A stretch of DNA of 51,966 nt from Desulfuromonadales bacterium (GTDB lineage Bacteria; Desulfobacterota; Desulfuromonadia; Desulfuromonadales; BM103). Below the pieces are notes generated by a model that was not told the DNA's origin, ran no database searches, and saw nothing but the letters and a program-made list of their open reading frames with translations. Position 1 is the first letter of the stretch. Each line of letters opens with the position of its first letter. The translations under genes and the position numbers were made by a program. Below are positions 203-6,873 of the stretch, one piece after another. The DNA is taken from contig JAQYVY010000026.1 in the NCBI GenBank assembly GCA_030145195.1, forward strand, positions 1 through 51,966. Direction: 5' to 3'.

Positions 203-2083
203 TCAGGCTGCTGGGTTAGGCAGATTGAAAGTGACGGTCGTTCCGACCCCCTCAGTGCTGTCAACTCGGATTTTACCACCGTGAGCTTCGATGATGTGTT
301 TGACAATGCTCATCCCCAAGCCAAGACCTGGTGCCAGATTGCTGCTAGCATTTGCACGGTAGAACTTGTCAAAGATGCGATTCAACTGCTCTTGACTCAT
401 TCCGATTCCCTGATCACTGATTGCAATTTGCCATCCCTCCGGCTGCAAGCTCCCTGTTAAGACTATTTCGCTTCCTTTGGGTGAGTACTTTACCGCATTA
501 CTTAATAAATTTTCGAGAACTTGACAGATGCGCTGGCGATCAATGAAGAGTTTGGTCTCTTTAATTTCGTCTGAAAGTTCGAGTCGGAAACAATGCCTTG
601 AATCATGAAGTTGGTAGAATTCAATGGTCTTATCGATCAGATCAAGGGGGCTGGTTTTTTGTAAATCCAGAGGGAGAGGCTGCCCACTCTCGATACGACT
701 GACATTCAGGACGTCATCAATAATCCGATTCAGAGCGTCCCCTCGACTTAAAATTTCATGAAGAAAATCTCTCTTCTTCTCTTCAGAAAGTTGGTTGGTG
801 TGGCCGACAGTGTTGAGAATGAGTTCCGTATAGCCAATTATGGCCGTCAGTGGGGTGCGTAGTTCATGGGCTGCGATCGAGATGAAGTCACTCTTCATCT
901 GATCCATTTCGATCAAGGCTCGTTCTGCCTCCTTTTCCGTGGTGATGTCACGGGTTGTAATCAGAATGCAGGGTTCCTCTTTGATGGTGATAAGCCGGGC
1001 CGAAACAAGAGCTGTCCTAACCTGACCGCCTACGGCGTTAAAGTCGGCTTCAAGATTTTTGATTTCACCATGGGTTTGTAATTGCTCGCGGAAGGTCTCT
1101 CTTAATCCCTTGTCTTGCCAAAGGTTGAGTTGCTCAGAGTTGTGACCAACTGCCTCAAGACGTGTAATCCCTGTTGCTTGCACGAATGCAGTATTGACAT
1201 CTATTATCGAACCGTCTTCAAGCTTTGCAAGAATTACTGGGTCAGGGTTTGTCTCAAAGGCGTTACGGAAGTATTCCTCTCTCTCACGTAATGCATTTTC
1301 AACCTGTTTTTCTTTCGTGATATCCTGAAAGGTGATCACTCGGGCCTTCCGGCCCTTGTAGCTGATATTCTTACCTCTTATCGAGAGAGGATAGGTACTT
1401 CCATCTTTTCGAACACCCTCAACTTCATATTTCTCGGAATAACCAGCTTTTATTTTTTTAATAGCGATTTCGAGAAAATCTGGGGCAATGAGCTTAAGGC
1501 CATCCATGCCAACAAGTTCTTCGTTAGTAAAGCCCGTTATGTCGGACAGACCCTGATTACAATCCAGTATCAACCCGCCGTCATGTATGATCACACCACC
1601 CAAAGATGCATCATGAAGCGCCCTGAATCGCTCTTCACTCTCTTTCAGTAATTTCTGGGATAACTCATATTCTTTGATCTTGTCCTGTAGCTTTTTATGG
1701 GTTTCAATGCGCTCGGTTAAATCACGAATGGCTCCGAGAAACCCAAGCAGTTCTCCGTTTTCGCCTTTAACCTGCGTGCCGAGAGTCTCTCCAGGGAAAA
1801 GAGTTCCGTCTTTTCGGCGGTATTCATTCTCATAAACAGTTTTGCTGTTCAAGGTCGTCTCGTTGTACCTGGTTTTTCCTTGATTGAAATAGCTCTCAGG
1901 GTTTGCATAAATGATTTGTGTCGTTCTTCCCGACACTTCCTCAAGGTGATAACCAAAAGTCTTGGTAAAGGCAGGGTTAACGAGAACGATTTGTCTTTTG
2001 GCATCAGTAAAGACGATAGCGTCTGTAATAGAGTTAAAGATGGCCTCAAATTCAGCCTTGAATTGTGTTTGTTGACCAGACAT
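203..2083 (-). CDS. Multi-PAS sensor histidine kinase
   Basis: This 626-residue protein has no obvious membrane segment and is probably a cytoplasmic sensor. Three PAS domains are visible at roughly residues 8-125, 149-260 and 267-385, each ending in a PAC-like stretch such as DITKEKQ. A HisKA domain follows with the phospho-accepting His406 in AAHELRTPLTA. The C-terminal ATPase domain has the N box (NLLSNAVKYS), the G1 box (DQGIGM), the F box and the GLGLGMSIVKHI G2 box. The PAS signal is unknown. The start at 2083 lies 93 bases after the STAS-like gene on the same strand, so the two are probably one transcript under the riboswitch at 2616-2698. No response regulator is adjacent. Confidence 0.93.
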   Translation of the reverse strand: MSGQQTQFKAEFEAIFNSITDAIVFTDAKRQIVLVNPAFTKTFGYHLEEVSGRTTQIIYANPESYFNQGKTRYNETTLNSKTVYENEYRRKDGTLFPGETLGTQVKGENGELLGFLGAIRDLTERIETHKKLQDKIKEYELSQKLLKESEERFRALHDASLGGVIIHDGGLILDCNQGLSDITGFTNEELVGMDGLKLIAPDFLEIAIKKIKAGYSEKYEVEGVRKDGSTYPLSIRGKNISYKGRKARVITFQDITKEKQVENALREREEYFRNAFETNPDPVILAKLEDGSIIDVNTAFVQATGITRLEAVGHNSEQLNLWQDKGLRETFREQLQTHGEIKNLEADFNAVGGQVRTALVSARLITIKEEPCILITTRDITTEKEAERALIEMDQMKSDFISIAAHELRTPLTAIIGYTELILNTVGHTNQLSEEKKRDFLHEILSRGDALNRIIDDVLNVSRIESGQPLPLDLQKTSPLDLIDKTIEFYQLHDSRHCFRLELSDEIKETKLFIDRQRICQVLENLLSNAVKYSPKGSEIVLTGSLQPEGWQIAISDQGIGMSQEQLNRIFDKFYRANASSNLAPGLGLGMSIVKHIIEAHGGKIRVDSTEGVGTTVTFNLPNPAA

Positions 2084-2176: not shown

Positions 2177-2536
2177 CTAGTCTTGTAGCAGATAGTTGAT
2201 GGCTTCTTCTTTGCAGTCAAATAGCTTGAAATCTCTTTTGCTGAAAATGCTTATTGCAGTGATCACGACTTTATATAGTCCTTTGATACCAACAACAGCA
2301 GCTTTATTGACATAGGGACTGTTGCCTTTAGTCAGGTCTTTCAATTTATCGACGAGTGCAAGATCGAATTTACCTTTTTCGACAATTGTCAGGGTTTTAA
2401 CCGAACCTTCCGGGCGTTGACGAACCTGCCTTGCACATTCATCAATCAAAGGAACCGCTTCTTTAATGTCTTCGTAGGCAAAGTTGAGAATGAAAATTTC
2501 ACTGCCGAACTCTGTGGTAAAGCATGCGTTGTTCAT
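2177..2536 (-). CDS. Small STAS/SpoIIAA-like protein
   Basis: A 119-residue soluble protein starting at MNNACF. I chose this ATG because AGGTGGG lies just upstream; an open extension to 2575 would translate through the terminator hairpin and is unlikely. The pattern of short strands, a helix near EAVPLIDECARQ, the central KAAVVGIKGLYKVV segment and the final FDCKEEAINYLLQD matches the SpoIIAA-like (STAS/SEC14) fold of small regulators. No catalytic residues are evident. It is the first gene after the riboswitch and precedes a PAS kinase, which suggests a regulatory partner role. The family call comes from pattern recognition only. Confidence 0.7.
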   Translation of the reverse strand: MNNACFTTEFGSEIFILNFAYEDIKEAVPLIDECARQVRQRPEGSVKTLTIVEKGKFDLALVDKLKDLTKGNSPYVNKAAVVGIKGLYKVVITAISIFSKRDFKLFDCKEEAINYLLQD

Positions 2537-2558
2537 AATCCCACCTGTTGAAAATAAA

Positions 2559-2590
2559 AAAATCCACCCAAGCATATGAAGGTGGATTTG
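2559..2590 (-). terminator. Intrinsic terminator acting as riboswitch expression platform
   Basis: A 9-bp perfect stem (2560-2568 with 2581-2589, AAATCCACC arms) with a 12-base loop is followed on the minus strand by seven T and then ATTTT. It lies between the GEMM-I aptamer and the ribosome site of the STAS-like gene, the usual position for a transcription-terminating expression platform. Confidence 0.8.
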
Positions 2591-2615
2591 AGAGGCCTTT
2601 TTCAGACATCTCTCC

Positions 2616-2698
2616 CTCTTCGGTGGCTGGGCTGTCTCATGGTAGAGACCCCTGGCTGTGCGTCCTCAGGTCACCCTGAGTTTGCTATTGTCCAAGAG
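2616..2698 (-). promoter_or_regulatory. GEMM-I riboswitch, cGAMP-type (GEMM-Ib) signature
   Basis: The minus strand shows a closing CTCTT/AAGAG stem, then AATAGCAAAC, a 6-bp stem CTCAGG/CCTGAG capped by a GTGA GNRA tetraloop, the near-invariant GACGCACAGCC (consensus GACGCAAAGCC), a second stem GTCTC/GAGAC at 2634-2649 and a distal AGCC. These are the parts of the GEMM-I aptamer in order. The base directly before GCAAAC (position 2686) is A. In Vc2 numbering this is position 20, which is G in c-di-GMP aptamers and A in the Geobacter cGAMP-responsive class. The aptamer feeds into the terminator at 2559-2590. Ligand choice is inferred from one base. Confidence 0.88.
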
Positions 2699-2922
2699 CT
2701 AGAACTATATTATTTTAAAGGTAACTCAATAACCGTGTGTTACGCAAGAGGACGGAAATTATAATGTATTCATCCCGTTGGTGGCATGGGAGAATGGAGT
2801 CATCACAGAGAAACCGATAAGAGCGAATTGCTAAACTTTGGAGTGAGTGGCATTTCACTCTTGATGAGACGAAAATCTACGTCTTATTGAACCCCATCAG
2901 TTGGACTTTTTTAGTGGCTGAA

Positions 2923-4465: not shown

Positions 4466-4588
4466 TGGCCACTAAGACACGAAGGCACCAAGAGGACCAA
4501 TCAAGGAATATAAAGCTCAATCTTGATATTCTGTGGTGTTCAGGAAAAGGCCATTGATCTCTCCGTGTCTTAGTGACTTTGTGGCTCG
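4466..4588. repeat. Dispersed palindromic repeat, family B (CCACTAAGACACGAAGGCACC type)
   Basis: The left arm GGCCACTAAGACACGAAGGC and the right arm CCGTGTCTTAGTGACTTTGT are imperfect inverted complements around an AT-rich centre. Related copies occur at 16148-16297, 32822-32899 and 33199-33327. No coding capacity is seen. It lies between the DUF1232-like and rhodanese genes. Confidence 0.75.
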
Positions 4589-5037: not shown

Positions 5038-5091
5038 GCATCTGTTGGCCTGAACAATTAAGAAATGTTACTCCTTTGAGGTCATTACTCT

Positions 5092-5115
5092 CTGCGACTT
5101 CGCGTCTTTGCGTTA
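5092..5115. repeat. Fragment of dispersed repeat, family A (GCGTCTTTGCGTTAA type)
   Basis: The short stretch CTGCGACTTCGCGTCTTTGCG followed by TTAA matches one arm of the family A palindromes at 6638-6873, 30601-30710 and 32258-32368. The partner arm is not present, so this looks like a partial copy. Confidence 0.55.
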
Positions 5116-5203
5116 ATATATGGTTTAAGTTGTCTCTGCCTTTGTTGGGGTTGTCGCTCCGTAAAAGCACCACTGCTTTATTCCCCTCTATTCATCTCAA
5201 AAC

Positions 5204-6637: not shown

Positions 6638-6873
6638 TTAACGCAAAGACGCAAAGACGCAAAGGTTAAACGCAACCGGTAAATATTAAGTTCTGAATGG
6701 TTAGAAACATTACCCGCTGCATCATTGTTGTTTTTTGGGGAAACATTGAGTTGTTGATTGGTTTTAAAACTTATATTTGAACCTATGATTATAGATTCTT
6801 TGTTTAACGCTCCGAGAAGGCTGTTTTGGGTAAAGATATCAAGCTTTTGCGCCTTTGCGCCTTTGCGTTAAAA
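6638..6873. repeat. Family A palindromic repeat with long centre (in gap 6590-6948)
   Basis: The left arm, TTAACGCAAAGACGCAAAGA from 6638, and the right arm, GCGCCTTTGCGCCTTTGCGT at about 6849-6868 followed by TAAAA, are inverted complements about 170 bases apart. The heptamer-like unit CAAAGACG is repeated in tandem in each arm. No gene is seen in the gap. Confidence 0.7.

Follow-up and report, generated by a model that had tools for sequence, protein, structure and literature searches.

The described cGAMP riboswitches raise the expression of surface and electron-transfer genes (PMC6456294, PMC9262584; these and the other papers cited here are represented by excerpts), and in Geobacter they are reported to act on genes for cytochromes, pili and polysaccharides (PMC6456294). 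The pilM riboswitch, which responds to cGAMP, is an ON switch because its aptamer and terminator are mutually exclusive, whereas in the Cd1 riboswitch, an OFF switch, the aptamer and terminator are able to form together, in competition with an antiterminator (PMC9262584). For Gmet_0970, a figure legend states that replacing A by G at nucleotide 20 shifted selectivity from cGAMP to c-di-GMP, and one Geobacter riboswitch is described as responsive to both ligands (PMC6456294). In the crystallised cGAMP riboswitch, P1 spans G1–G8 and J1/2 spans A9–A14, and the ligand pocket is composed of G8, A9, A11, A12, A14, C15, G40, A41, A42 and C75 (PMC6274999).

Here we describe a riboswitch in a 51,966-nt contig of a Desulfuromonadales bacterium. 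This whole stretch of DNA is referred to as the window; it is contig C71 of the genome, which totals 3.4 Mb over 100 contigs. Judged by its sequence, the riboswitch belongs to an already known class: it is an A-class (cGAMP) GEMM-I element, placed in the leader of a putative sensor-kinase operon that encodes a STAS-like protein and a PAS histidine kinase.

Aptamer architecture and selectivity base

The aptamer lies on the minus strand (2619–2696) and is matched by the Rfam model for GEMM-I (c-di-GMP-I/cGAMP) riboswitches, RF01051, over model positions 1–87 of 87. The match (2696–2619) scores 51.8 bits, well above the gathering score of 35, with an E-value of 2.5e-7 for this search; the related model RF03167 gives 51.6 bits, under its own cut-off of 59. 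Above its cut-off, RF01051 finds seven aptamers in the window genome and none in the 14 control genomes. P2 with its GNRA loop (GUGA), P3, the J2/3 A and P1 are all found, together with GACGCACAGCC, so that the alignment and the sequence bear out the full set of GEMM-I parts listed by the initial annotation, and the covariance-model search it had proposed came out in its favour. The 5′ strand of P1 (2692–2698, minus strand, from folds) pairs with a 3′ strand, GAAGAG, and the helix contains one G·G mismatch (2693 with 2621).

The base preceding the inner P2 pair of the transcript is an A (2686, minus strand), which we take to be the equivalent of Vc2 G20, as the initial annotation had done when it assigned the aptamer to the A type. 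By spacing, this base corresponds to A14 of the crystallised cGAMP riboswitch in the numbering of the PMC6274999 excerpt. Counted likewise, the window pocket consists of G8, A9, A11, A12, A14, G15, C40, A41, C42 and C77, in agreement with that structure at 7 of 10 positions; the C15–G40 pair is replaced by G15–C40, and A42 by C. At the level of sequence, a real GEMM-I aptamer with an A at the cGAMP-class position is confirmed, and we predict with good confidence that the ligand is cGAMP.

Reading the same position in the other aptamers of the genome gives an A in three (L002, L006 and the window aptamer, L005) and a G in four (L001, L003, L004 and L007). One of the G-type aptamers, L004 (G000:C60:7520-7598), has a 3′ strand that by eye doubles as the 5′ arm of a terminator, which is the ON layout; the window genome may therefore hold both layouts. 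The number of RF01051 matches is larger in three genomes of one family (38 in G015, 27 in G016 and 36 in G017) than the seven of the window genome.

Candidate cGAMP synthases

The mark of Hypr enzymes is Ser348, and natural Ser/Thr enzymes are stated to have GGDE[F/Y] exclusively in the excerpt of PMC6456294; an active GGDDF enzyme, GSU1937, is described in that of PMC8835794. The GGDEF protein encoded inside the window has the canonical motifs GHLEGD and GGEEF, as the initial annotation had stated when it placed the synthase elsewhere and called for a genome-wide search for Hypr GGDEF genes. That search gives 18 GGDEF matches, some of them fragments, and 3 of the 18 carry a serine for the canonical aspartate. 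These are L039 (receiver-GGDEF; GHLVGS, GGDEF), L041 (GAF-GGDEF; GHLVGS, GGDEF) and L045 (GYAKGS, GGDDF), all on contigs other than the window. Among solved structures, L039 and L041 both match 6d9m best, and this protein too contains GHLVGS. L039 resembles GacA, a cGAMP synthase of G. sulfurreducens, in combining a receiver domain with a serine GGDEF, and L045 resembles GSU1937, a cGAMP synthase of the same species, in combining the serine with GGDDF (both known systems as described in excerpts). Unlike GacA and GSU1937, the three proteins are candidate synthases by sequence.

The leader and the downstream genes

Downstream of the aptamer, the leader (minus strand throughout) contains a spacer hairpin (2590–2614), an intrinsic terminator (2551–2589) and a ribosome-binding-site-like AGGTGGG (2540–2546). 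The 3′ strand of P1 and the CCACC that precedes it (2616–2626) are common to the aptamer and a predicted antiterminator, whose core is the spacer hairpin; both assignments come from folds and a 22-row alignment. The terminator, identified from sequence and folds, consists of a stem-loop (2589–2560) and a U run to 2551, and is joined to the aptamer as originally described. It is not among the calls of a simple terminator scan of the window, because its loop of 10 exceeds the scan's loop limit of 8. Upstream of the leader, a promoter-like site (2758–2787, minus strand) carries 10 of 12 consensus bases, which is weak, as six such sites occur in the window against 4.9 expected from shuffles. The ribosome-binding-site region AGGTGGGATT (2537–2546) resembles the 3′ arm of the terminator, GGGTGGATTT (2560–2569), so that, once read-through has occurred, the terminator 5′ arm could occlude the ribosome-binding site as well.

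The two genes behind the riboswitch are those of the initial annotation, a STAS-fold protein followed by a PAS histidine kinase. The STAS/SpoIIAA-like protein (2177–2536, minus strand, 119 aa, from Pfam and predicted fold) starts at 2536; the mechanical ORF start, 2575, falls inside the terminator. The SpoIIAA-like family PF11964 scores 21.5 bits against it, under the cut-off of 25, and a search of solved structures with the protein returned no significant match. Its structural model, built from 16 sequences, has a mean pLDDT of 84.4. The ten best PDB chains are all SpoIIAA-like, STAS or Thermotoga TM1081 (TM 0.57–0.66, E 0.002 or worse) and include 2q3l, described as SpoIIAA-like; none of the solved folds matches at E ≤ 0.001. 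On the strength of this model, the protein is predicted to have the STAS fold. The kinase (203–2083, minus strand, 626 aa, from ORF and Pfam) contains three PAS stretches, HisKA and HATPase_c, and ends 203 bases from the contig edge. It is separated from the STAS gene by 93 nt, a gap across which the two genes are presumably co-transcribed.

The kinase as the apparent conserved partner

Of the 277 genomes of the class, 32 contain STAS homologues, the window genome included. We scanned the STAS loci of 29 of the 31 other genomes with Rfam, using an upstream flank of up to 1.5 kb (137 nt only in L094), and found no GEMM-I upstream of any homologue (0/29). A paralogue in the window genome, which lies by eye behind a hypE-like gene (L026), is likewise without GEMM-I upstream. 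A conserved pairing of riboswitch and STAS gene was therefore rejected; the GEMM-I near the homologue in L012 (G133) lies ~960 nt downstream of it, and by reading has a G at the selectivity position. With no RNA upstream in any of the 29, the STAS gene does not appear to be what is conserved behind the riboswitch, a correction to the initial annotation, which had placed both genes under its control.

Kinase homologues are found in 80 of the 277 genomes at E 1e-60, and the 14 best loci in other genomes were scanned. GEMM-I is present in four of these, and in two (L100 of G013 and L103 of G017) it immediately precedes the kinase, in the same orientation. The two leaders are 82% (G013) and 78% (G017) identical to the window leader and have the same aptamer, the same selectivity A, the spacer hairpin and the terminator. 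The STAS gene is absent from both loci; among the three genomes with the shared leader, only in the window does it separate the leader from the kinase. The corresponding kinases share 54% and 49% identity with the window kinase and are without its first PAS domain. By score, the G013 kinase ranks first and the G017 kinase fourth of the 14. Between them lie the kinases of G015 and G016, which are 59–60% identical over ~375 residues only and have no GEMM-I in the locus. By its sequence, the shared leader links the kinases of one group in three genomes, and these occurrences uphold the association of riboswitch and kinase; of the two genes, the kinase rather than the STAS gene seems to be the conserved partner.

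A covariance model of the full leader was run against 136 genomes. Among the matches listed, its three source leaders are followed by one in G012 (103 bits) and then by matches of at most 93 bits; the genes behind three of the latter (L268, L269 and L270) are by eye not kinases. In the G012 leader, AA replaces the two pocket Cs. This diverged leader (L172/L267, G012:C72:46663-46812) precedes a PAS-GAF kinase and has an interrupted U run; its sequence is perhaps that of a decaying riboswitch.

Predicted sign of control

The terminator of the window leader begins 33 nt past the second pocket C and does not overlap the aptamer. It can coexist with P1, whereas P1 and the extended hairpin cannot. 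In the RNAalifold consensus of the three leaders, the 3′ strand of P1 pairs with the 5′ arm of the terminator through the spacer hairpin, a pairing that would correspond to an antiterminator of the Cd1 type. One pair of this extended hairpin changes from A–U to G–C in G013, at the expense of a pair in the terminator of that leader. The consensus also pairs CCACC with the terminator 3′ arm, an interaction that we consider doubtful: its probability is at most 0.08 in each single leader, and two of its pairs are broken in 9 and 5 of 22 leaders.

Folding of nascent RNA that lacks the terminator 3′ arm gives the extended hairpin a probability of 0.99 in the window, 0.75 in G013 and 0.98 in G017. 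P1 dominates the nascent window RNA up to column 119 (0.90–0.93), and from column 126 the hairpin reaches 0.99 and P1 falls to 0.01. At every length tried, P1 without ligand stays at or below 0.13 in G013 and 0.19 in G017. The probability of the terminator at full length is 0.74 in G013, 0.34 in the window and 0.02 in G017. It rises to 0.999–1.0 when the aptamer is forced, a result that follows from the topology.

Alignment of 22 leaders, fitted to the structure model, shows the pairing of GAAG with CUUC in 97.7% of cases, with little variation. The next helix is paired in 80.8%, with both-side changes in two of its three pairs, and the spacer hairpin has both-side changes in all eight pairs, on 6 to 12 of the 22 rows with letters. 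In slid controls the fraction of paired cells does not exceed 47.7%.

Across the class, 118 A-type leaders were classified by terminator position: it is apart from the aptamer in 95, overlaps it in 8, and was not found in 15. At the nascent stage, the antiterminator has a probability of at least 0.5 in 70 of the 95 leaders with a separate terminator (mean 0.73, shuffles 0.46), and 24 of the 95 beat all 20 of their shuffles, with 4.5 expected. In the G-type set, 11 of 13 reach 0.5 and 7 of 13 beat all shuffles. The full-length effect is small: only 18 of 95 leaders reach 0.5, the mean is 0.18 against 0.09, and 37 of 95 lie above the control mean. The nascent-stage test is the stronger of the two. 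In a duplex-energy test, 14 of the 95 fall below 0.05 (4.75 expected). The number of shuffled arms, out of 20, that pair as well as the leader's own is 5 for the window, 14 for G013 and 1 for G017.

Taken together with the absence of a pilM-type exclusion between terminator and aptamer in the window leader, this layout suggests, by sequence and by analogy, that of Cd1 (OFF) and is unlike that of pilM (ON). Because a separate terminator would compete with a hairpin that joins the P1 3′ strand to the 5′ arm of the terminator, as in Cd1, we lean slightly towards OFF over ON and predict that ligand turns the operon off, a prediction for which the window leader by itself gives weak support. In the model, the ligand would be able to lock P1 once RNA polymerase leaves the aptamer. 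With 3′,3′-cGAMP bound, P1 would stay closed, the terminator would form and transcription would end. Without ligand, the P1 3′ strand would join the terminator 5′ arm in the extended hairpin, the terminator would be hindered and the kinase would be made. We regard this model as a whole, an A-class riboswitch in which cGAMP closes P1 and terminator formation turns the operon off, as evenly poised.

Alternative readings

The opposite sign is the one published: the described switches of G. sulfurreducens and G. metallireducens are ON (excerpts of PMC6456294 and PMC9262584), and cGAMP might turn the window operon on as well, through an unrecognised antiterminator or through the ribosome-binding site that resembles the terminator 3′ arm. 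Pairing is possible between AGGTGGGATT, the ribosome-binding-site region, and AAATCCACC, and in the minimum-energy fold of a longer leader the 3′ part of the aptamer pairs with this region. Against this, the terminator begins 33 nt past the second pocket C and is able to coexist with P1, and no ligand-created pairing that blocks the terminator was found in the window leader. We therefore judge an ON switch to be rather unlikely and retain OFF as the preferred sign.

The ligand and the target can also be read differently. A promiscuous aptamer, or one that binds c-di-GMP rather than cGAMP in the cell, would fit the canonical GGDEF proteins of the genome, one of them inside the window, the Geobacter riboswitch sensitive to both ligands (excerpt of PMC6456294), and the G15–C40 pair and C42 by which the pocket departs from the crystallised cGAMP riboswitch (PMC6274999). 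The selectivity A is nevertheless common to the window, G013 and G017 leaders, and the genome encodes three serine-type GGDEF proteins; we consider this reading unlikely and cGAMP the probable ligand. It is more improbable still that the riboswitch serves the STAS gene in the window and that the kinase is transcribed separately. In favour of this reading, the STAS gene comes first in line, with a good ribosome-binding site, and the kinase is set off from it by 93 nt; however, none of the 29 scanned STAS homologues in other genomes has the RNA upstream, and two kinase homologues carry the leader without a STAS gene.

Targets of A-type aptamers across the class

A-type aptamers were collected with the pattern AGCAAAN{12,20}GACGCANAGCC, which misses variants, including the G013 and G017 leaders. 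The pattern occurs in 86 of the 277 genomes, and its reversed control gives 5 among the matches listed. Of the 133 distinct aptamers (window genome included), 129 have a nearby ORF. Pfam domains in 128 ORFs behind A-type aptamers include GGDEF (12), Response_reg (12), EAL (9), HisKA (6), CheW (3), Cytochrome_C7 (3) and MCPsignal (2), in a tally in which families overlap, the 25 commonest out of 157 families are counted and the choice of ORF is mechanical. Kinase domains are found behind A-type aptamers in G002, G012, G015, G016, G017 and G088. By sequence, A-type aptamers of this class repeatedly have signalling genes as their targets, so the sensor-kinase target is not exceptional. The initial annotation had singled out the target as unusual in lying outside electron transfer; a sensor kinase does follow the riboswitch, but signalling targets recur (Response_reg 12 and HisKA 6, against Cytochrome_C7 3).

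Three very similar A-type leaders are present in G015 and G017 (L124:1488-1630, L184:2412-2554 and L262:98-240). The first two precede similar 132-aa proteins, that of L124 without a Pfam match. The window also contains short repeats (4470–4575, 5085–5116, 6638–6669 and 6846–6871), made up of an inverted pair (CACTAAGACACGAAGG...) and of TTAACGCAAAGACGCAAAG units that occur in either orientation; similar units gave rise to spurious hits of the aptamer pattern in other genomes.

Among the entries listed, our literature search showed no printed cGAMP OFF switch and no kinase or STAS target; this is no proof of absence, and the target lists of two 2015 cGAMP-riboswitch papers fall outside the comparison. 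Riboswitches are mentioned in excerpts of three genome papers (PMC3543383, PMC2996986, PMC4914508), with neither a kinase nor a STAS gene as target.

DISCUSSION

That cGAMP-class riboswitches are commonly OFF switches across the class, with one conserved group shutting off a PAS sensor kinase when cGAMP rises, is a possibility that we put forward tentatively. If true, cGAMP would act with opposite signs on some surface genes and on some sensory proteins, and two-component signalling would be reset through RNA by a single second messenger. Retention of an A-type aptamer ahead of a sensor kinase, combined with an OFF layout, would demonstrate that cGAMP alters what the cell senses, in the direction opposite to that of the described switches. 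OFF wiring of a cGAMP-class aptamer would be new, if shown. With a separate terminator in 95 of the 118 A-type leaders sampled, it should not be taken for granted that cGAMP control has the sign seen in Geobacter.

The closest known systems are the GEMM-Ib riboswitches of Geobacter (pilM, Gmet_0970 and pgcA), which share with the window a GEMM-I aptamer with the selectivity A, a downstream terminator and a serine-type GGDEF in the genome. The differences lie in layout and target. In pilM the terminator is mutually exclusive with the aptamer (PMC9262584, excerpt), whereas the two are separate in the window; the reported Geobacter targets are cytochrome, pilus and polysaccharide genes (PMC6456294, excerpt), and the window has a sensor kinase in their place. 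In layout the locus appears closer to Cd1 of Clostridioides difficile, a c-di-GMP-I riboswitch whose aptamer and terminator likewise can coexist (PMC9262584, excerpt) and whose competing antiterminator has a predicted counterpart in the window. Cd1, however, binds c-di-GMP and serves flagellar genes, whereas the window aptamer, by its selectivity base, is of the A class.
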